Numbered from the stretch's first letter, positions 34,812 through 46,768 are shown. The stretch is 64,000 nt of DNA from Acidobacteriota bacterium (GCA_016191085.1 JACPPJ010000015.1:1-64000); one strand, 5' to 3'. The notes: generated by a model from the sequence alone, not told the origin. Numbers and translations: made by a program.

Positions 34812-34979
34812 TGGTGGGAAACTCTCCTTTTCCTTTGAGTCGAACTAGACGCGAATGGTTGCTCTGTAGAGCTGCTGAACGGCCCGTCTTCTGGGTGTCC
34901 TAACGAATCTCGCGTCATTGATGTAAACACGCCGGCGGGAGGAAAAGTTGCTGGATACGAAACGACAGAGAGAAGTTCT

Positions 34980-36419
34980 TTATGAGTTAGCGCCTTTCAA
35001 CACTTCCAGCGCGCGACGGAGTCTGGCGCGGCAAAGGTCGCGGCCGAGGATCTCCATGGAATCGAACAGCGGAGTGGAGGTAGGACTCCCGGTAATAGCT
35101 ACATAGAACGGTCGAAGGAAATCGCGCAGTTTGCTTTGAAACTCGTCACAGAGTTGCTTGAACAACGCTCCAATGGCTTGTTTGTCCCAGCAGCCCAGCG
35201 CATCGAACTCTTCGAGCGCTCTCGCGAATGCTTTCCTGCTCACTTCAACCGGCACCTTCTTGTCTTCAAAATCAGCCGCCTTGACGGGCAGCTCTCCAGA
35301 GAAGAAGAACGCGGTCAGAGGACCGAGGTCGCTCAGGATCGATACGCGCTGCTTAGTGAGGGCGGCAATCGGCATCAGATATTCGCGGTTCAACGCCCAC
35401 TTCTGAACGCGCTCCGCGTACTGCTCATCGCTGAGGTCTTCGCGCACCCAGCGCCCGTTTAGCCATGAGAGTTTCTTAATGTCAAAAACCGGGCCGCCCA
35501 GGGAGATGTGCGCCAAGTCGAACTTCTCCACCATCTCCGCCAAAGAAAGTTTCTCTTCTCCCTCCGGCATGGACCAGGCCATCAGACCCAGGTAGTTCAG
35601 CATTGCTTCGGGAAGAAAACCCATTCGCTGGTAATAAACCAGGCTAGTGGGATTTTTCCGCTTGCTCAATTTACTCTTGTCCGGATTGCGGAGCAGCGGA
35701 AGATGGCAGAAGACAGGCTTCTCCCACCCGAAGTAGTCGTACAGGAGAAGATGCTTTGGAGTCGAGTTGATCCACTCTTCCCCGCGAATGACGTGAGTAA
35801 TGCCCATCAGGTGGTCGTCCACAACGTTGGCCAGGTGATAAGTGGGCATTCCGTCCTGCTTCAGCAGCACCTGCATGTCCACCATGTCCCACCCGATCTC
35901 AATCCTGCCGCGCAGCAGATCGGTCATCTCACAGACTCCCTGCTCCGGAACTTTCATGCGGATGACATACGGAACATTGTCTCGCAGCAGTTGCTCTACT
36001 TCCGCTTGTGAAAGCCCAAGGCATCGCCCATCGTATCCCGGACGGAGCCCTGCCGGCTGTTGTGCTTTGCGCAATTCGGCCAAACGCTCCGACGTACAGA
36101 AGCAGCGAAAGGCATGGCCTTCCTCCAACAGCCGCGCCACATGTTGGCGATAGATTTCGCCCCGCAGACTCTGCTGATAGGGACCGTGAGGTCCGCCCAC
36201 GTCAGGCCCTTCATCCCAATCGAGTCCCAGCCACCGCAGGGAGTTTAAGATCGCCTCCTGCGATTGGGGATTACTCCGGGCCATGTCCGTGTCCTCGATC
36301 CGCAGGATAAATTGGCCGCCTGATTTTCGCGCAAAACAGTAGTTGAAAAGGGCTACGTAAGCGGTGCCGACGTGAGGGTCCCCGGTGGGAGAGGGCGCGA
36401 TGCGGGTGCGAACAGTCAA
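34980..36419 (-). CDS. gltX: Glutamyl-tRNA synthetase
   Basis: Charges tRNA-Glu with glutamate. 479 residues, near the usual 470-490. Class I motifs: [16 protein letters not shown] (HIGH region, residues 6-21), FILRIEDTD, and KLSKRKNP (KMSKS-like) near residue 240. The start is TTG at 36419, preceded by GAAGGAG at about 8 nt; the partial second copy of this region at 40.8-41.0 kb keeps the same TTG and ribosome binding site. The C-terminal anticodon-binding half is present, so this is the functional copy. Downstream (minus-strand) spacer to the Spy-like gene is 168 nt. Confidence 0.96.
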   Translation of the reverse strand: MTVRTRIAPSPTGDPHVGTAYVALFNYCFARKSGGQFILRIEDTDMARSNPQSQEAILNSLRWLGLDWDEGPDVGGPHGPYQQSLRGEIYRQHVARLLEEGHAFRCFCTSERLAELRKAQQPAGLRPGYDGRCLGLSQAEVEQLLRDNVPYVIRMKVPEQGVCEMTDLLRGRIEIGWDMVDMQVLLKQDGMPTYHLANVVDDHLMGITHVIRGEEWINSTPKHLLLYDYFGWEKPVFCHLPLLRNPDKSKLSKRKNPTSLVYYQRMGFLPEAMLNYLGLMAWSMPEGEEKLSLAEMVEKFDLAHISLGGPVFDIKKLSWLNGRWVREDLSDEQYAERVQKWALNREYLMPIAALTKQRVSILSDLGPLTAFFFSGELPVKAADFEDKKVPVEVSRKAFARALEEFDALGCWDKQAIGALFKQLCDEFQSKLRDFLRPFYVAITGSPTSTPLFDSMEILGRDLCRARLRRALEVLKGANS

Positions 36420-36605
36420 ACGGTTGGCTCCTTCGGATGAAAGGTCCTTGCCGGAATGCCGGGGAGGCAGAAAGCAAACAGCAATTATAGCCTATCGCGC
36501 AAAGTATCCTGGAGAGGGTAGCAGGCGATTGCTTCCTGTTTTTCCTTGACTGCGAATTCTTGAAGGGGTGCAGAGGTCTTCTATTGTGCTAAAATCGGCG
36601 GCGTT

Positions 36606-37169
36606 ATGGAGCGTTTTTACCTTTATGCTGCTGTTCTCGGTGTTTTGGCCTTTATATTAGCCATACCGATGGCTGTTGCCGCAAACCTGCTAACACCAAA
36701 GGTCCAGCGATGGTGGGCTAGCTCTTCTCGAAGTCGTGCATTGAAGCGGCTAAGCCGTTTGGAGAAGCAAATTTCCGAATTGCAAGCAATGTCAGAATGG
36801 CATCTCATGGCTCGGATCATGCATGCCGGCGTCGGGTTTTTTTTCGCGCTTTTTATGATTCTTCTCGCCTTATTGTATTTTCTCTATTTAAACGATCTAT
36901 ATCTATTTGCTCATAACGGTTTTAAATTGCAAAGTGATATCACCGAGACTGACATTGTTCGTAAAGCTGAACGACTCATCTACATCATTTCTACATCCAG
37001 TTTCATACAAGGTCTAGAGTTTCACCGCTTATCAGTTGGCTTAAGACAACTCTCTCCAACACATAGAAACAAGCGGCTTGAGGATTTGAAAACAGATCGT
37101 GATGTCCTAACGCAAAGGCTGGGAGTTGTGGATAATTCTCTTCCACGACTTACCGCTCCTCATTGTTAA
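36606..37169 (+). CDS. Orphan two-helix membrane protein in the first gltX/glnS junction
   Basis: 187 residues. An N-terminal membrane helix (residues 4-28) is followed by a basic coiled-coil-like segment ([19 protein letters not shown]), then a second helix ([18 protein letters not shown], residues 77-95), then a helical cytoplasmic or periplasmic tail. The gene is A+T richer than its neighbours and faces opposite to gltX. I do not recognise the family. Its place between gltX and a glnS 3' fragment parallels the nuclease/NTPase gene at 41.2-43.6 kb, so both may be cargo of one insertion slot. Confidence 0.6.
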
Positions 37170-37340
37170 ACTCTGGTTTTTTCAAATTCGAGCGCGCGGG
37201 ATCCGGCAGGATCAGGATCATCTTCGCATCGACGCCGAGAAGCAGCGCGCTTTCGTAGAAGTCGTTGACTACCACGGCGTATGTCTACAAATGAGCCATC
37301 ATACCGTGCTGTATTGCGTGACGACGTGGCGCCGCCTATC

Positions 37341-37470
37341 CCTTCTGTTTGCGCTCGAATCTTCGCCCAGGTATCCCGTAATGTCGCTGTGCGGTTGAAG
37401 ACTAGCTTCTCGGGTTTCGAGTCGCGATCAACACACAAGTAACCGAGCCGCTCAAACTGATACAGAGAAT
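37341..37470 (-). pseudogene. Duplicated 3' fragment of glnS
   Basis: About 130 nt closely match the real glnS 3' region at 43670-43800 (by eye about 90 percent). The translated part reads [28 protein letters not shown] and LRDTWAKI, versus the same GlnRS C-terminal words in the intact gene. An extra A near 37358 shifts the frame relative to glnS. The rest of glnS is absent. The stretch 37170-37511 holds nothing else that I can name. Confidence 0.85.
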
Positions 37471-37511
37471 CGACCGGAACACCGGGCAGATACAGGTCGC
37501 TGCCATCGGGC

Positions 37512-38693
37512 TCACATGAAATTTTTCGTGTGATAAGCGGAAAGAGTCTCGGCGTCCTGCGCGCCGAATCCAAGGGATTGCAAGCGTTCCCTACGGGAGC
37601 GGTCCATATCCCGGTGCAGCTCCGCGACGCAGGATGCGCCGTGGCGGATCTGCGAAGGCTCAATGCCGCCCCCGGAGTAGATCACGAGGGCATCATGCAC
37701 GTACGGACTCAGCCCGGTGACGGAGGCAAGGACATTGTTCCTCCGCTCGACGGCCGCCGCCAATGAGGACCGGCGTTCCGGTTCGAGTCCCAAGATGTAC
37801 CGAATATGTTCGACGCCGAAAGCCACGTGCCGCGCCTCATCGCGATGAGCAAGGCGCGCCAGCATCGCCGTCACCGCATCCGGGGCGTGACGTTCCAGAA
37901 ATGGCAGTAAAGTCAAAAATGTCCCTTCTCCCATTACGCAAAGCAGGAAAACCGCAGAGGTGAAATCCGCTTCCTCCATCAGACTCTTGAGCGAAAGCTG
38001 TCCACTGGCCGCGGTCGTTCCGAGTCCCTGCCCTCCCGCTTCGGCCCGTTTTATAAAAGCCTCTGCGTGCCGAGCCTCGTCGGCGATCTGCATCGCCAAC
38101 ACTTGCACGACTTCCCTATAATGGGGATGAATACGAGCAAGAAAACGGGCAGGGATATAGAGTGCGGCGAATTCATTTTCCGTCAGAAAGGTCATGATCT
38201 GACAAACCGCACCTTCCACCTCGGAAGAGAGCTTGGGAAGCTGCTGCCACGGAATGTCCTTCGCCGCTGACCACTGGTTCGCCACCGCCTGGCGATGGAT
38301 GCTGTTGAGTTCCTGCGCCCACACGTCCTTCTTCCTGGAAAGGGGAAATGAAAGGCTAGGGCCGCCGGCCTCGAGCATCGCACCGCGCGGCGCCAAAGCC
38401 CAGGTCGGCTCCGCTACCTCCGCCACTTCCGGGCCAGAACTGAGCAACGGGACCGCGACCGCGCCGCGTTCGATTATGTAAATCCCGACTCCGTTGCCAC
38501 CTCCGTGATATGGGTTGCCCGACTGACGGCACCAGGAGCGGATGTGCAGTTCGAGGTCGGACGAGTCGCCGTGGACCTCCAGCAACTCTCCCTCGGCCAT
38601 GCGGGCGAGACTGCGCCGCAGCAATACCGGCACCCCCTGATGAAACGCCAGGTCTTCGAGGTCGAGCCGCAGCTTTGGAATGATTTCAGGCAT
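37512..38693 (-). CDS. TusA-like domain fused to a ferritin-like di-iron protein
   Basis: 393 residues. The first 65 residues resemble a TusA/SirA-type sulfur-carrier fold ([20 protein letters not shown], then [12 protein letters not shown]); the Cys is in the second half rather than the usual CPxP site. Residues about 165-310 form a ferritin-like four-helix bundle with two Glu...ExxH sets: ENEFAALY...DEARHAEAF and GEGTFLTLL...[10 protein letters not shown], consistent with a di-iron centre. It overlaps the PhnD-like gene stop by 8 nt, so it is the last gene of a three-gene operon. An oxygenase or oxidase role is inferred; the substrate is unknown. Confidence 0.7.
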
Positions 38694-39522
38694 AAAACTT
38701 AAACCGGCTTACTGCATTTTGCAGTTGCTGATACCCGCTGGTGCGAGCAGGCAGCCAGCGATTGAGGCCTTCCAGTTCCATAAAGGTTCGCACGCTGGGA
38801 TCTTCAAACGACATCGCGAGGAGGACTTCAACGAAGGGACGGCTGCGCTTCTCGGAAACTCCGGTGAGCGCGGTGAAATTGCAATGATCGTAGGGAGGCG
38901 TGGTCGCCAGGATCTTCGTTGTGCCGGGATCGAGTGTGCCTTCGTTCACGAACACTGTGAAGTTACTGTCCAGCACGCAGGCCGCGTCCGCCTGACCGGA
39001 AGCCAGTGCTCGTGCCGCGTCGCGCTCTCCGCCGACATGATCCCCATGTTTGCCGAACATCACTTCGTGATATAGGACCTCGAAGTCCTTGCCGGAAACA
39101 AGCCCCGCGTCGGTCAGCATCGCCAGCGGGATCAGTGTCGCCTGGGGAGAATCTGATGCTCCAACAGCGATCGTTTTGCCTTTCAGGTCCAACACCGAAG
39201 CAATATTGGAATTCTGCCGTACCAGAATGTGGGTGGTGAGGTCGCGATCGCTGTCGCGCATCGCCAAAGCCTGGCACTTTCCCTTAGTTGCGAGATCCGT
39301 TCTTACCCAGGCCAATGGCGAGTTCCAGGCAATGTCAATCTCTCCGGAGAGCATCGCGTCCACCTGAGCATCATAGTGGGAGTAGAGAACATAATCGATT
39401 TCGACGCCTCTCTTGTGGAAGTAGTCCTTGAATCCTTCCCAGATTGTGACGACTTTGGGATCGTAGGCAACCGCTCCGATTCGCAGAGGGCGGTCCGAGG
39501 ATTTCTTGTCAGATTTTGGCAT
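38686..39522 (-). CDS. PhnD/SsuA-like substrate-binding protein without a signal peptide
   Basis: 278 residues from the ATG at 39522. The periplasmic-binding fold of the PhnD family is evident: RIGAVAYDPKVVTIWEGFKD, SGEIDIAWNSPLAWV, LKGKTIAVGASDSPQATLIP and ALASGQADAACVLDSN. The N terminus (MPKSDKKSSDRPLRIG) has no signal peptide or lipobox, and the only longer in-frame start does not create one. There is no ABC permease or ATPase gene nearby. It may therefore bind a phosphonate-, sulfonate- or oxyanion-like ligand in the cytoplasm for the adjacent enzymes. Confidence 0.75.
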   Translation of the reverse strand: MPKSDKKSSDRPLRIGAVAYDPKVVTIWEGFKDYFHKRGVEIDYVLYSHYDAQVDAMLSGEIDIAWNSPLAWVRTDLATKGKCQALAMRDSDRDLTTHILVRQNSNIASVLDLKGKTIAVGASDSPQATLIPLAMLTDAGLVSGKDFEVLYHEVMFGKHGDHVGGERDAARALASGQADAACVLDSNFTVFVNEGTLDPGTTKILATTPPYDHCNFTALTGVSEKRSRPFVEVLLAMSFEDPSVRTFMELEGLNRWLPARTSGYQQLQNAVSRFKFYA

Positions 39523-39563
39523 AGGACAATCCGTATTTCTTTTTTTTACTAATAGCACTGCCG

Positions 39564-40712
39564 TCAGAAGAGTGGCATACCGCAGGTGGATTTGCCGATA
39601 AAATCGTACAGCGCATCAGTGACAGGCGCCATTACAGTGGCCGCGCGGCTATCCCGGAAAAAGCGTTCCACGGCGACGTCTTTGCGAAAAGCCGCCCCGC
39701 CGCAAACCCTCATAGCCAAATCCAGGACTTCGAGGGAAGTTTCGGCGCCCGCGACCTTGGATTCCAGCACACGCAGCATCACATCATCCCGCTGCTGCTC
39801 GACGGCTTCGACGGCATCCAGTAGAAAACCGCGAACGAGATCTATTTTCACACGACTCCTAGCAATATGCCCGCGCACCTGCGGCAGGTCGGCAATTTTC
39901 GAGCTATCGTACGAGTACCTGGAATTCGTCACATGTTGGACGGCCCGGGCCAAGGCACCTTCCATCATACCCAAGGAAACCGCGCAGCTTTGCACATTGA
40001 AATAAGGCAGAATGACTCCCATCATTACATCGAACCCTTTTCCGTCCTCACCTAAACGGCTCGACTCGGAAACCAGGACATCCCGCGCCGTGATCGGAGC
40101 AGAACCATTCCCGCGCAATCCCAGGCCGTCGAACGGCGCTGAGATCGTAAGTCCCTTCGCGTCCGAAGGAACCGCCCAGATGGTGCTCAGCCCTTGGGCG
40201 GCCACAGGCTTGCTAGACCAAACGTATAAGTCACACTTTCCAGCCGCCGTGATCAATTGCTTGGAGCCGTTCAGCCGGATGCCGTTTCCGTTCCTCTCCG
40301 CCGTGCCTACCGGTACCCAGAAGTGGCTGCGTGACCCGGTTTCGGAGAAAGCCAGCGTGGCCAACTGACCTCTGGTGGCTACAGCTTTCCTTAGATCTTC
40401 TGTGCCAAAATGTTCGATCGCGGTGGTCGCGCAATTATGCATGATCGTAATCATGGCTGTGGAGGGGCAATCGCGAGCGATCCGCTCCGCCACGGCAACA
40501 GCAGAACGAATTCCCTGACCCTGTCCTCCCATCTCCTTAGCACTGAGAAGGCCAAGCAGCCCGGCGTTTCGCATGGCGTCTATATTTTCTCTCGGAAAGC
40601 GGCCCTCTTTGTCGGTCGTTGCGGCCCGTGGCTCGATCACTTCCCGTGCGATCCTATCCACCGCAGCCAGAATCCGCAATCCTTCTTCATTCAGTTTCCA
40701 CGAGTTGCTCAT
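39564..40712 (-). CDS. Acyl-CoA dehydrogenase-family flavoprotein lacking the usual catalytic Glu
   Basis: 382 residues with the acyl-CoA dehydrogenase fold: N-terminal helical domain (GLLSAKEMGGQGQGIRSAV), middle beta domain (LAFSETGSRSHFWVPVGTA), C-terminal helices (FRKDVAVERFFRDSRAATVM). Where dehydrogenases end with the YEGT-type segment supplying the base, this protein has VMAPVTDALYDF, so the Glu is missing at that place. Members without it include flavin-dependent monooxygenases of the DszC/SfnB type. First gene of the operon with the PhnD-like and TusA-ferritin genes; together they suggest oxidation of a sulfur-, phosphorus- or similar heteroatom compound. Confidence 0.75.
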   Translation of the reverse strand: MSNSWKLNEEGLRILAAVDRIAREVIEPRAATTDKEGRFPRENIDAMRNAGLLGLLSAKEMGGQGQGIRSAVAVAERIARDCPSTAMITIMHNCATTAIEHFGTEDLRKAVATRGQLATLAFSETGSRSHFWVPVGTAERNGNGIRLNGSKQLITAAGKCDLYVWSSKPVAAQGLSTIWAVPSDAKGLTISAPFDGLGLRGNGSAPITARDVLVSESSRLGEDGKGFDVMMGVILPYFNVQSCAVSLGMMEGALARAVQHVTNSRYSYDSSKIADLPQVRGHIARSRVKIDLVRGFLLDAVEAVEQQRDDVMLRVLESKVAGAETSLEVLDLAMRVCGGAAFRKDVAVERFFRDSRAATVMAPVTDALYDFIGKSTCGMPLF

Positions 40713-40756
40713 TGCGCTTATTTCCTTTCAAGGAGTGCTCCTGCGCGCTACTCCTA

Positions 40757-41000
<244 letters not shown>

Positions 41001-41150
41001 GAGTAAGTCCTTTGGGTGATTCGACGCTGAGGCGAGTCAACGGCCAGTACACGATTCCCTCACGAAACGGCGCGAGTCGCCTGTCGATTTTTACGTCAGG
41101 ATGAGCCATACTTCGAAGGATTGTCGAAAAGAATTGGTGGGAAATCTCAA

Positions 41151-43616
41151 ATGTTAATCGATGAGAATTCGGCACTGTCCACGGAGAGCGATGTTGAGCA
41201 AAAGATCCTCTTCCCACTCCTGACCGGAGACGGGTATCTGGGTATACCTGTAGCCAACGTCCATACCAAAGAGTATCTTCCTCCCACTCCCCTCGATAAA
41301 GCCGCAGGCAAGACGATTGGCTACTATCCGGATTACTCAATTTGGTTTCATGGTCTGCCAGTAATGATAATTGAAGCCAAATCTCCTGATGTTGATCCGC
41401 AGATAGGTTACCGCGAAGCTAGTCTGTATGCTCGGCACCTGAACCAGAAGTTTCCCGCCGGAGTCAACCCGTGTGCTCGCATCATCTCCTCAAACGGCAA
41501 CAGATTACTGTACGGACCTTGGGACGCGGCACCAGAGATTGAGTTGTCATTGTCTGATCTCAATGTGGGCACTGCCGGGCTGGAGAATTTACAGTCGCGT
41601 TGCTTCGGCCACATACTCGATAAATCTGCAATAGAAATCTCCCAGAGGCTCCAGCTCATAAACATCGTTATCCCCTATGACCTACTGGGAGGCCAAGCTG
41701 TGCTCAACGCCAAGCGGCCTCTAAACACGTTCGCAGCCGACTTGTCTCCGGTCCTTCGGCGTTACTTCTCATCCACCCCGCAGGAAAACGTTCACGAGAT
41801 CGCCGAAAAAGCATACATTTCCTCAAACGAAGTTACCGAATACGATCGTGTTTTGGAGTCGTTGCTCAAGGAGCGGCTCTCACTTCGGCAGACCGCGATC
41901 GTCAAACCGCTGGAGCCCAGCCGACGGGAAGAACCCAACGTGGCGCACGCAATCGCCTCCTTTGATGAGCAACGCCCCATGACAGGACAGCTTCAAATCG
42001 TCCAGGGCCCAGTCGGCGCGGGTAAGTCTTTGTTCGCGCGGCGATATTGCGATGTTTTGCAAGATCCCGACCAAGCTAAACGGACGCGTTGGGCATTCAT
42101 AGACTTCAATACTGGTGCGATAAGCAATACGCTTAGTCCCGAACGGTGGTTATACGAATCGTTCATGCAGGCATTCCAGAGTGAGAATCCGTCACTGGAC
42201 GTGTACTCTGCTAGCGCTCAGCGAGGTATCTTTTCTAGAAACCTTCAGAGGCGGCGCAGCGTGTACGAAGAACTTGAGCGAGTATCTCCCGAATCGGCGG
42301 CCGTGCAGCGGGCAACCGACCTTGCCAAATGGCAAGACGACCCGAAAGAGTTCACGCAAGGGCTCGCTACATATATTTTGGGGAGCCGTCACGAAGTACT
42401 CGTCGTAGTGATGGACAACGTGGACCGACTTGATCTCAACGGACAGCTAACGGCGTTCAATATCGCCCTTTCTTTCATGGCACTGACGAAGTGCTTTGTG
42501 ATCCTCCAAATGCGAGACGAGACATACGAGCGGTTCAAGGATAAGCCGCCTCTAGATACCTACCGCTCGGGCATAACATTTCACATTTCGCCGCCTCGAT
42601 TCATAGACGTCGTCAAGCGCCGACTTGAACTGAGTCTGGAGTATTTGACGGCCCATGCCGCCGAGGTACAACGATATACCTTGGAATCCGGGATGCGGAT
42701 CAGTTATCCGAAATCGGCGCTCGGTTGGTTTCTAGGACAACTATACTTGGAGCTGTTCGAACGCCGCCACAACATCTCTCGCGTCCTCGAGGCGCTTGCC
42801 GGATGGGACGTGCGCCGAGCACTGGAAATGTTCGTGAGCGTTATTACCTCGGGACACCTCAGTGAAGAATCGATCACATCGAGTGTCATGGGTGCGAAAA
42901 GTATTCCCATCAGAGAGCACACTGTTCTTAAAATTTTGATGCGCACGGATTACCGTTTTGCGAGCGATCAAAGTGGCTACATCATCAACGTGTTTGGCTT
43001 CGACAAAGAATGGGAGAGGCCGGACAATTTTCTTCTTGTCGAGGCACTGTACTATTTAACGGCGAACCGTAAGAAGCGAGGAGAAATCGGCCTGGAAGGG
43101 TACTTTACCTGCCGGCATGTTGCGAATGCTCTGCAACAGTTTAGCTACGTGCCGGAGGATGTTCTCGCTGCTCTCAATCATCTGCTCCGGAAACGGCTTA
43201 TCGTTGCGGACCACATGAATCATACGTCCGTTGCGTTTGATGACTCAGTTCGCATTCTTGCGGCCGGATTCATGCATTTACGGGTTTTGACCGAGCGACT
43301 TGAGTACCTGTTCGGTATTTTGCCTACAGTGCCGATCGCTGACCGACACGTTGCGCAACAGATCGCGCGGGTTCTAGAGAAAGAGAAACTTACCGGAGAG
43401 GTTTTGGCAACGGAGAAGATCCGCGCAGTTCGACATTTTCTTCGCTATTTATGGTCACTACATGCCTCCGTCAGAGGGCGCAGTGTCCACGCTGCGGATG
43501 AGTACAGCGGCGCGGATTATGTCCTGAAAAAGATTGCGGCGTGCTTGGCTAACTTTTATATCAAAGGCATCAAAGGCATAGCTTCGCCGGATGAGGAGGA
43601 CGTGCTTGATCTTTGA
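41151..43616 (+). CDS. Predicted PD-(D/E)XK nuclease fused to a P-loop (STAND/AAA-like) NTPase; candidate defence protein
   Basis: 821 residues from the ATG at 41151; a TTG at 41121 is possible. Residues 10-125 resemble the N-terminal nuclease domain of type I restriction HsdR: Glu16 in ESDVEQKILFPLL, Asp61 in GYYPDYSIW, Glu75-x-Lys77 in MIIEAKSPD, and a Gln84/Tyr93 pair. A P-loop NTPase follows: Walker A GPVGAGKS (residues 286-293), Walker B VVVMDNVDRLD (418-428) and a sensor-like segment ILQMRDETYERF. The C-terminal third is helical with a winged-helix-like part (VLAALNHLLRKRLIVADHM). There are no helicase motifs and no hsdM/hsdS genes. The layout resembles nuclease-STAND (Avs-like) defence proteins; function is inferred. 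Confidence 0.72.
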   Translation: MLIDENSALSTESDVEQKILFPLLTGDGYLGIPVANVHTKEYLPPTPLDKAAGKTIGYYPDYSIWFHGLPVMIIEAKSPDVDPQIGYREASLYARHLNQKFPAGVNPCARIISSNGNRLLYGPWDAAPEIELSLSDLNVGTAGLENLQSRCFGHILDKSAIEISQRLQLINIVIPYDLLGGQAVLNAKRPLNTFAADLSPVLRRYFSSTPQENVHEIAEKAYISSNEVTEYDRVLESLLKERLSLRQTAIVKPLEPSRREEPNVAHAIASFDEQRPMTGQLQIVQGPVGAGKSLFARRYCDVLQDPDQAKRTRWAFIDFNTGAISNTLSPERWLYESFMQAFQSENPSLDVYSASAQRGIFSRNLQRRRSVYEELERVSPESAAVQRATDLAKWQDDPKEFTQGLATYILGSRHEVLVVVMDNVDRLDLNGQLTAFNIALSFMALTKCFVILQMRDETYERFKDKPPLDTYRSGITFHISPPRFIDVVKRRLELSLEYLTAHAAEVQRYTLESGMRISYPKSALGWFLGQLYLELFERRHNISRVLEALAGWDVRRALEMFVSVITSGHLSEESITSSVMGAKSIPIREHTVLKILMRTDYRFASDQSGYIINVFGFDKEWERPDNFLLVEALYYLTANRKKRGEIGLEGYFTCRHVANALQQFSYVPEDVLAALNHLLRKRLIVADHMNHTSVAFDDSVRILAAGFMHLRVLTERLEYLFGILPTVPIADRHVAQQIARVLEKEKLTGEVLATEKIRAVRHFLRYLWSLHASVRGRSVHAADEYSGADYVLKKIAACLANFYIKGIKGIASPDEEDVLDL

Positions 43617-43631
43617 TGAACGAGTCCGGCC

Positions 43632-45398
43632 TCATGTACAATAACGCAAACCCTTACTTCCCCCCTGCCCCTTCTGTTTCCGCTCGATCTTCGCCCAGGT
43701 ATCCCGTAATGTCGCTGTGCGGTTGAAGACGAGCTTCCCGGGTTTCGAATCGGGATCAACACAGAAGTAACCGAGCCGCTCAAACTGGTACAGAGAGCCG
43801 GCCGCAGCACCAGCGAGACACGGTTCTATCTTGCAGCGCTCGACGATCTCCAGCGAATTTGGGTTCAGATTGATTGTGAAGTCCTCACCCTCTTGGACCT
43901 CATTCGGGTCTTCCTTGGTGAACAAGGTATCGTAGAGCCGCGCCTCAGCCTCCAGCGCGTGCGGTGCGGAAACCCAGTGGATGGTGGACTTCACCTTGCG
44001 TCCATCGGGGGCATTGCCGCCGCGTGTCTCCGGATCGTAAGTGCAGCGCAACTCCACAATGTTTCCGCTGGCGTCCTTGATTACGTCCCTGCAAGTCATC
44101 ATATAGGCATACCGCAAGCGCACCTCACGCCCTGGCGAAAGCCGGTAAAACCCCTTGGGGGGATCCTCCCGGAAGTCGTCGCGCTCGATATACAATACGC
44201 GCGAAAATGGCACCTTCCGTGTGCCCGCGTTGGCGTCTTCCGGGTTGTTCACTGCCTCCATCTCTTCCACGAGATCCTCCGGATAGTTTTCGATGACCAC
44301 CCGTAGAGGACGAAGGACCGCCATGACGCGAAGCGCACGCTTATTCAGGTCTTCACGGACACAGTGCTCCAGCAACGCGAGTTCGATGACGCCATTTGTT
44401 TTCGACACACCGATTCGGCTGCAGAATTCGCGGAATGCCTCCGACGTATAACCCCGCCGTCGTGCACCCTTGAGAGTGGGCATGCGGGGATCGTCCCAAC
44501 CGCGCACGTGTCCGTCGCGAACGAGCTGGAGCAACTTCCGCTTGCTCAGCAGCGTGTAGGTCAGGTTCAGCCGGTCAAACTCGATCTGCTGCGGATGATG
44601 GATTCCGAGTTGCTCGATGAACCAATCATAGAGCGGGCGATGATCCTCAAATTCCAACGTGCAGATGGAGTGTGTGATGCCTTCGATCGAGTCGCTCTGC
44701 CCGTGAGTGTAGTCGTAGGTTGGATAGATGCACCATTTGTTTCCGCTCCGAGGGTGCTCGGCATGCAAAATTCGATAGAGAATCGGGTCGCGCATATTCA
44801 GGTTCGGTGACGCCATATCGATCTTGGCCCGGAGCGTACGCGAACCGTCCGGGAAATCGCCGGCGCGCATCCGTTCGAACAAGGCCAGGTTCTCTTCCAC
44901 ACCGCGTCCACGGAAGGGACTTTCCCGGCCCGGTTGGCTTAACGTGCCACGATACTCCCGCACCTGGTCGGCAGTCAGGTCGCACACATAAGCCTTGCCC
45001 GCCTGGATAAGCTGGACAGCCCAAGCATACAATTGCTCGAAGTAGTCGGACGCATAGAAAAGACGGTCTTCCCAATCGGCTCCCAACCAACGAACATCTT
45101 CGATGATCGACTCGATGTATTCCATTTCCTCTTTCAGTGGATTGGTGTCGTCAAATCGGAGATTGAATTTGCCTCCAAATTCCTTCGCCAGGCCAAAATT
45201 GAGATGGATTGATTTCGCATGACCGTAGTGCAGATATCCATTCGGTTCAGGGGGAAACCTGGTATGCACGCGGCCGCCATTTTTATTACTCTCGATATCC
45301 CGAAGAATGATGTCGCGAATGAAATGTGATTTCGGCCGCGGCGAATCACCAGCGCGGGGAGTGGATCCAGAAATTTTTTGGGGTGTAGTCATGCTCAT
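43632..45398 (-). CDS. glnS: Glutaminyl-tRNA synthetase
   Basis: Charges tRNA-Gln directly. 588 residues, a little longer than E. coli GlnRS. Class I motifs: [17 protein letters not shown] (HIGH region), [10 protein letters not shown], and LLSKRKLLQ (KMSKS-like). The C-terminal beta-barrels for the anticodon are present ([20 protein letters not shown]). The start pair MSM at 45398 lacks a strong ribosome site. The 3' end overlaps a copy of the sequence duplicated at 37.3-37.5 kb, and its last 12 codons ([13 protein letters not shown]) abut the nuclease/NTPase gene, which converges with it 16 nt away. Confidence 0.95.
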
Positions 45399-45468
45399 AT
45401 ACCTATGATATCGCGTGATAGCTGCCTCTGGCGCTCATTCGTTGACAGAGAACAAGCAGCGGTAGCGC

Positions 45469-45538
45469 AGGGTTTGATCTTTTTCAAACCCTGCGGCTCT
45501 TCTCCGGACAGGCCGCAGCGTTTGAAAAGCGCAAACGC
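45469..45538 (-). promoter_or_regulatory. Three adjacent hairpins between moeA and glnS
   Basis: CAGGGTTTGA/TCAAACCCTG (45469-45493), CTGCGGC/GCCGCAG (about 45491-45517) and GCGTTTG/CAAACGC (45518-45538) are in series. For minus-strand transcription they lie after moeA and before glnS. They could end moeA transcripts or form a structured glnS leader; no poly-T tract decides it. Confidence 0.45.
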
Positions 45539-45559
45539 ATGTTTACAGAAAAGAAGCAG

Positions 45560-46768
45560 TCAGCGCGTCAGGACGGAGACCCACTCTCCTGCTTTTATTT
45601 CGGCGGCCTCCTCGGGCACGGCCAGGTAGCAATTTGCGCGGTTCAGGCTGGCGATATCGCCGGAGCCTTTCCATTCCACCACTGAGACAGACGGGTCGTA
45701 ATAATCGCCCTCCAGCAGCGCGGGAAGAAAGGAGGCCAAACCCGGCTTGCGGCGGAAGTCGCGCGCCAGCCTGGCACGCAGGAATCGCAACGGTGCGCTT
45801 GCTTCTCCTGAGAGCAATGCCAGCGCGGGCCGGACAAATAGTTCGAAGGTGACCATAGTGGAAAGCGGGTTTCCAGGCAGCCCAAAGAAGAAAGTGCCGT
45901 GCGCGCGCCCAAAGACGAGCGGTCTGCCGGGCTGAATCAGGACGCCGTCGAAGAAGAACTCCGCGCCAAACTCGGCCAGCACTTTTTCCACCAAGTCATA
46001 TTTCCCCATCGAGACGCCACCGCTGAGCAGCAGGAGATCGCTCTTGAGTCCCTCTGCAATCATTTCTGCGAGTCGGTCTTCGCGATCCAGAGCAACCCCC
46101 AGAGGTACCGGCGTGCAATGCTCGGCCTTGACCTGCGCGTATAGCGAGTAGCCGTTGCTGTTGCGAATCTGGAACGGTCCTGGCGTCTGCTCCACTTCGA
46201 CGACCTCATCGCCGGTGGGAATGATAGCCACACGCGGCTGCCGACATACGCTCACCGATGAGCGACCCACGCTAGCCATCAAAGCTACCTCACCATAACG
46301 GATTCGGCGGCCCGGCTCGATCAGTAAATCGCCACTACGCGCCTCGCTACCGCGTGCGACTACATTCTCGCCAGGCGATACGGCGCGGTTCACTTCAACT
46401 GCATCACCGTCGCGCTCCGTATATTCAACCATCACGACAGCATCAGCGCCCTCCGGGACTGGTGCGCCGGTCATGATCTCCACGCACTCCGTCTCCGCTA
46501 TGGATCCGGAAAACGCGCTTCCGGCCTTCACCTGTCCTTTGCACCGCAATCGCATGGGCAACTGGGAAACGTCCTGCGCACGGACAGCGAAGCCGTCGCG
46601 GGTAGAGCGAGGAAATGGAGGAAAATCGCGGTCGGCGTGGATCGGCTCGGCGAGCACGCGCCCTTGGCTGTCGAGGAGCGGCAGACGCTCGGATGCAGGC
46701 GTGCCACCTGCAGAGCGAATCTGTGCGATTACGGTTTCGCGCGCCTGCGTAAACGTAAGGACGGCCAC
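45560..46768 (-). CDS. moeA: Molybdopterin molybdenumtransferase MoeA
   Basis: Inserts molybdate into adenylylated molybdopterin, the last step common to all Mo cofactors and needed for NarG. 402 residues from the GTG at 46768; longer in-frame starts reach into a repeat. Motifs: ADRDFPPFPRSTRDGFAVRA, EIMTGAPVPEGADAVVMVEY, IIPTGDEVVEVEQTPGPFQI, LLSGGVSMGKYDLV, GLPGNPLSTMVTFELFV, as in MoeA and gephyrin. The window has no other moa/mob gene. It lies 82 nt after purA, with a palindromic repeat between. Confidence 0.93.
   Translation of the reverse strand: MAVLTFTQARETVIAQIRSAGGTPASERLPLLDSQGRVLAEPIHADRDFPPFPRSTRDGFAVRAQDVSQLPMRLRCKGQVKAGSAFSGSIAETECVEIMTGAPVPEGADAVVMVEYTERDGDAVEVNRAVSPGENVVARGSEARSGDLLIEPGRRIRYGEVALMASVGRSSVSVCRQPRVAIIPTGDEVVEVEQTPGPFQIRNSNGYSLYAQVKAEHCTPVPLGVALDREDRLAEMIAEGLKSDLLLLSGGVSMGKYDLVEKVLAEFGAEFFFDGVLIQPGRPLVFGRAHGTFFFGLPGNPLSTMVTFELFVRPALALLSGEASAPLRFLRARLARDFRRKPGLASFLPALLEGDYYDPSVSVVEWKGSGDIASLNRANCYLAVPEEAAEIKAGEWVSVLTR

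Follow-up and report, generated by a model that had tools for sequence, protein, structure and literature searches.

Two diverged copies of a glnS–gltX junction, each with a different foreign gene, flank a cassette operon in an Acidobacteriota genome

The analysed window, 64,000 nt of an Acidobacteriota bacterium (GCA_016191085.1 JACPPJ010000015.1:1-64000), contains the same glnS–gltX junction twice in direct orientation, with a different foreign gene in each copy and a three-gene operon between the copies. On few informative sites, the two copies appear to have been alleles of different lineages that diverged before they were joined. With slightly better than even confidence, we regard the locus as a scar left by DNA of a related strain, with other cargo, that was inserted in a one-sided event of the single-crossover or displacement type. 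It is a modest variant of known recombination scars and no new kind of system, and it gives a legible snapshot of the uptake of foreign genes without any recombinase.

Read along the minus strand, the gene order was purA, moeA, glnS, orphan B (opposite strand), gltX', the acyl-CoA dehydrogenase, substrate-binding-like (SBP-like) and DUF455 genes, 'glnS, orphan A (opposite strand) and gltX, where gltX' and 'glnS are truncated copies. Both junction copies, both cargo genes and the operon made up one 9-kb stretch. The full-length genes were intact and showed the expected Pfam domains: glnS (43632-45398, minus strand) encodes a GlnRS of 588 aa (tRNA-synt_1c, E 6.5e-107) and is 85% identical to the glnS of family member G004, and gltX (34980-36419, minus strand) encodes a GluRS of 479 aa with an HVGT motif (Pfam, E 3e-106) and is 75% identical to that of family member G001. 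The final 12 codons of full-length glnS were unlike those of its relatives, and 16 bp separated the end of orphan B from its stop codon.

The repeated part of gltX consists of its 5′ end and leader, and was found at 36255-36504, at the head of the full gene (leader, 36420-36504), and at 40757-41007, as gltX'. The repeated part of glnS is its 3′ end, found at 43660-43826, within the full gene, and at 37331-37498, as 'glnS. All four segments lie on the minus strand, and no other long direct repeats occurred in the window. Positions 36255-36499 aligned to 40757-41000 over 246 columns with 91.5% identity (E ~5e-92); the 165 nt of coding sequence were 96.4% identical, and the leader had diverged further. 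Positions 37340-37468 aligned to 43669-43796 over 129 columns with 93.8% identity (E ~3e-49), and weaker homology reached 37498 and 43826, respectively. The sequence-only reading had proposed these repeats, a different orphan gene in each copy and a three-gene operon between the copies. The repeat alignment recovered the repeats at these positions and on one strand, and the operon was indeed found between them (37512-40712, minus strand).

In gltX', a leader of approximately 85 bp with a TATAAT box precedes the first 55 codons; an in-frame TAG then ends the fragment, 44 bp ahead of the acyl-CoA dehydrogenase start. The 'glnS fragment, apparently the 3′ end of a second glnS allele, starts approximately 14 bp after the DUF455 stop codon and retains about the last 45-50 codons. 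It carries a one-base (+1 T) frameshift near 37359 and ends, where the relatives end, in an ancestral-looking TAG.

Full-length gltX and gltX' differed at 6 of 165 coding bases, with five synonymous differences and one Met/Leu replacement (P ~0.005-0.009 under neutrality). When these six sites were polarised with the gltX orthologues of G001, G005 and G006, all members of the family, the full gene was derived at five and the fragment at none, with one site ambiguous. Decay in place would leave all 165 sites of a fragment free to change, and more changes would be expected in it than in the constrained gene; for such decay the 5 versus 0 split, which involves few sites, has a probability of approximately 3e-4 to 1.6e-3. 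The glnS core (129 nt) had four sites at which the full gene was derived, two at which the fragment was, and two ambiguous ones, and identity to G004 was 85.3% for the full gene and 86.8% for the fragment. Because of the outgroup polarisation and the synonymous bias, divergence as alleles in different lineages is the probable history, and the fragments do not appear to be decayed copies of resident genes. The earlier statement that this is no simple tandem duplication was thus upheld, and recombination between strains carrying different cargo, which the same reading had offered as one explanation, fits best on the same two lines of evidence. In-place tandem duplication with later decay was rejected on the outgroup polarisation. 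The 'glnS fragment showed two non-synonymous changes in addition to the frameshift, and gltX' was nearly pristine; since 'glnS looks more decayed, two events of different age, rather than one, are possible.

The operon between the fragments consists of an acyl-CoA dehydrogenase family gene, Rv1679/FadE16-like (39564-40712; NF049984, E 6e-112, below the cut-off; also recognised by Pfam), a gene for a phosphonate-type substrate-binding-like protein, Rv1680-like (38686-39558; Phosphonate-bd, E 1.4e-37; NF049985, E 2.5e-81, below the cut-off), and a gene for a DUF455/ferritin-like protein (37512-38693; DUF455, E 2e-6, below the cut-off), all on the minus strand. The mycobacterial pair of the FadE16/Rv1680 type (NF049984 and NF049985) likewise has adjacent dehydrogenase and SBP-like genes, equivalent to the first two genes of this operon, whereas the operon described here falls below the curated cut-offs, adds the DUF455 gene and occurs in another setting. 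At least eight other genomes of the class also have the trio as a unit, in unrelated places, and in the stretches examined there it was never beside gltX or glnS. It is therefore a cassette that also occurs elsewhere, and it stands here behind a copy of the gltX leader, from which it would presumably be expressed. A search of 34900-46000 for a conserved RNA leader gave no Rfam match, and the signal of a promoter and terminator scan was not above that of shuffled sequences. Two types of dehydrogenase (approximately 72% versus 36-40% identical) were seen to precede the same SBP/DUF455 pair (37512-40712 in the window; loci L124-L131 elsewhere).

Given its spacing to the two fragments (44 bp and approximately 14 bp), the trio fills the joint almost exactly. 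The gltX'/operon joint (40738-40764, minus strand) has the 8-bp direct repeat CGCAGGAG on either side, at 40757-40764 and 40738-40745. The repeat is present twice and is not merged as a simple join would leave it, so it is at most suggestive of a join at short homology. The topology of this joint would also suit an in-place tandem duplication at short homology, from gltX codon 55 to the operon start, in which the joint was selected for putting the operon behind the gltX leader, redundant parts were lost afterwards and the cargo was inserted separately. Acquired genes have been activated by such duplications in experiments (PMC11111574), and redundancy would permit the loss of one glnS. However, the fragments are less changed than the constrained full genes and keep the outgroup states, two independent cargo insertions at one slot would be needed, and the first operon copy must have vanished without trace; we consider this origin quite improbable.

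The cargo genes differ, as the sequence-only reading had held: orphan A (36606-37169, plus strand) encodes a putative membrane protein of 187 aa, and orphan B (41121-43616, plus strand) encodes a protein of 831 aa. Both are foreign and atypical in G+C content (orphan A, 43%; orphan B, 52%; neighbours, 55-61%). Orphan A is nearly a singleton, with a single weak local match among 299 genomes of the class. Orphan B has a PD-(D/E)XK/HSDR_N-like region at its N-terminus and a P-loop ATPase with conserved Walker A and B motifs; the Pfam matches to HSDR_N (E 1.4e-4) and AAA_22 (E 3.4e-4) were both below the Pfam cut-off. Its structure model was of moderate quality (pLDDT 72, pTM 0.49) and the fold matches, to ORC and NB-ARC proteins, had low TM-scores, so these matches indicate an ORC/STAND-type ATPase and nothing more specific. 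Relatives of orphan B in Acidobacteria and Proteobacteria adjoin integrase, resolvase, restriction-modification or toxin-antitoxin genes, and PHROG 14719 (function unknown) matched the protein. There was no PADLOC match at E ≤ 1, no NCBIfam match or sequence-level PDB match of note, and no match among phage records; a named defence system was rejected on the absence of PADLOC, NCBIfam and noteworthy PDB matches. Orphan B has the character of a solitary mobile gene, probably of the defence type; its domains, together with the neighbourhoods of its relatives, do no more than suggest a role in defence. A solitary nuclease-ATPase gene of this type is thereby placed at a tRNA-synthetase locus. The family of orphan B (41121-43616 in the window; loci L016-L024 and L194 elsewhere) is widespread, solitary and absent from PADLOC, and is a candidate single-gene defence system.

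The source genome comprises 82 contigs and is 88% complete, from which we take it to be a metagenome-assembled genome, and moeA and glnS are not adjacent in its relatives. These properties would fit an assembly chimera, in which one contig was stitched from two co-occurring strains with different cargo. Nevertheless, the window contains no Ns, the estimated contamination is only 0.49%, and the longest identical runs between the junction copies are 42 and 44 bp. Both joints at the operon ends fall in unique sequence outside the repeats, so a chimera of the assembly graph would not make truncated genes there. Because of these short runs and the position of the truncation joints, misassembly is unlikely.

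A one-sided insertion would proceed as follows. On the resident chromosome, a foreign gene would have stood between glnS and gltX, and it alone would have been read in the opposite direction; a second lineage would have had the same junction with the other foreign gene. The molecule that came in, whether linear or circular, would have brought one junction allele together with the acyl-CoA dehydrogenase/SBP/DUF455 operon. Homology in glnS or gltX would have anchored one side, and the other side would have been closed by an illegitimate join, or by a single crossover in the case of a circle. The old junction would have been displaced downstream, not replaced, which would leave two junction alleles with different cargo, truncated gltX' and 'glnS, and the operon in the joint. 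We observed truncation at both operon ends and retention of 'glnS–orphan A–gltX, and no homologous crossover could be placed. We infer both parental states, because the genus is represented by one genome and no strain with an empty or single-cargo junction was found among the 7 family genomes or the 69 neighbourhoods of the class; the one-sided mechanism and the identity of the incoming allele are likewise inferred. A one-sided insertion is favoured by the repeats in one order and on one strand around differing cargo, the allelic divergence, the joints at the operon ends, the cassette nature of the trio, the atypical G+C of the cargo, and the synteny breakpoint and probable ancestral gene order described below. 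The case for it is weakened by the possible difference in age between the fragments, the unmerged state of CGCAGGAG and the small number of informative sites. Homologous recombination from repeat to repeat could still resolve the locus, either to glnS–orphan B–gltX, with loss of 4,502 bp, or to glnS–orphan A–gltX, with loss of 6,328 bp.

Comparable scars have been described. In the type VI secretion (T6SS) clusters of Vibrio cholerae, effector-immunity modules have been displaced, as proposed, by homology-facilitated illegitimate recombination (PMC5361080). The incoming module is likewise anchored by homology at one end, and the 3′ end of the old gene is kept downstream with its cargo, whereas in the present locus the anchors are tRNA-synthetase genes, the cargo consists of unrelated genes, a metabolic operon occupies the joint and there is no series of displaced modules. 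Merodiploids of Streptococcus pneumoniae made by transformation (PMC3784515), approximately 100-900 kb in length and bordered by repeats, are also partial tandem duplications in which two alleles were joined by recombination between donor DNA and the chromosome, but the present duplication is confined to the ends of the two genes, each of them truncated. The tandem duplication that activated a horizontally transferred gene (PMC11111574) also has a joint at which a resident expression signal precedes the acquired gene; it was formed in place from identical units, whereas the units here are diverged alleles with different cargo. If reads bear it out, the locus would record displacement-type recombination at an intermediate stage, at a site other than a polymorphic-toxin locus, and would suggest a one-step route by which an operon acquires a constitutive leader.

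The survey of the class covered 69 glnS neighbourhoods. A neighbouring gltX was found in 45, in the order gltX to glnS in 43 and convergent in 2, and the remaining 24 had no gltX within reach. Gaps within the gltX–glnS pairs were mostly -9 to 119 bp. The order glnS–cargo–gltX was found in 0 of the 69 neighbourhoods; two that had been labelled as glnS before gltX were overlapping gltX–glnS pairs. In the family of the window, gltX and glnS were not neighbours (glnS of G004; gltX flanks), and the gltX flanks in G001, G005, G006 and four genomes of family f4 held other genes. The same flanks with different cargo were seen only in the two copies of this genome. The interpretation in the sequence-only reading therefore stood in part: recombination between strains was retained, whereas a recurring insertion hotspot found no counterpart in the family or in the 69 neighbourhoods. 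A hotspot in relatives was rejected on the differing gltX flanks and the absence of the glnS–cargo–gltX order, and an island mediated by an integrase or transposon was rejected as well: a search of the genes near the locus gave no integrase or transposase, no att-type repeat was found at the tRNA-synthetase slot, and the only tRNA was distant.

Two alleles with two different foreign genes in the same orientation, one of them from a mobile, defence-like family, are what would be seen if the glnS-3′/gltX-5′ gap repeatedly took up solitary foreign genes. Five genomes of another family of the class (f9) have 0.9-3.2 kb of varying genes in the gltX-3′/glnS-5′ gap: an IS200-like transposase gene, a GGDEF-like gene, an alcohol dehydrogenase and RelE-like pair, a rhomboid-like gene, and a DNA methyltransferase gene with a second gene (names read from translations). 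Two of these genomes share a genus yet differ in cargo. The variable interval of f9 is on the opposite side of the genes from the slot in the window, and such a gap would have had to fill repeatedly without an att site, tRNA or integrase nearby, with no common motif observed at the edges of the cargo other than the repeats, and without the slot occurring in any relative examined. A recurring hotspot is therefore scarcely credible. Nearly as doubtful is the broader proposal that the glnS tail and gltX head form an integrase-free exchange slot, through which foreign genes and trapped operons would circulate among strains as circles by ordinary homologous recombination, with the present locus a still-resolvable intermediate.

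In 43 of the 69 class neighbourhoods gltX immediately precedes glnS on one strand, and the two fragments follow that order. The unit gltX'–operon–'glnS might therefore be the relic of a class-typical gltX–glnS operon that gained another glnS and gltX, one on each side, and then lost its interior to the cassette. We consider this rather unlikely: the GluRS of most class pairs is of a different subfamily (approximately 32-37% identical; G015 has one of 51%), the genes are unpaired in the family of the window, and three copies of the pair as well as reciprocal losses would be required. The same single-copy CsgG-like gene is closely followed, co-directionally, by glnS in G004 and by gltX in G005, and this shared position is consistent with an ancestral glnS-to-gltX order in the family. 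In the family, glnS turned up in only two of seven genomes. Since all seven have GatB, glnS may have been lost and regained, a history that cannot be told apart from the one-event model.

In the six other family genomes, moeA adjoins purA without glnS, and several of them have moaC, a response-regulator gene and mogA next in line after moeA; in the source genome this last block is on a separate contig (C54). The gltX gene keeps its TlpA/DsbD-side neighbourhood in G001. The window is thus a synteny breakpoint between the purA–moeA block and the gltX block. The first bases of contig C54 (1-160) look like what we take to be the start of a mobile-element gene, and this gene beside the moaC block suggests an IS-associated rearrangement. 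Finally, G004 is the closest relative by glnS, and its gltX, which stands beside TlpA/DsbD genes, is only approximately 40% identical to that of the window and looks replaced by a distant form.
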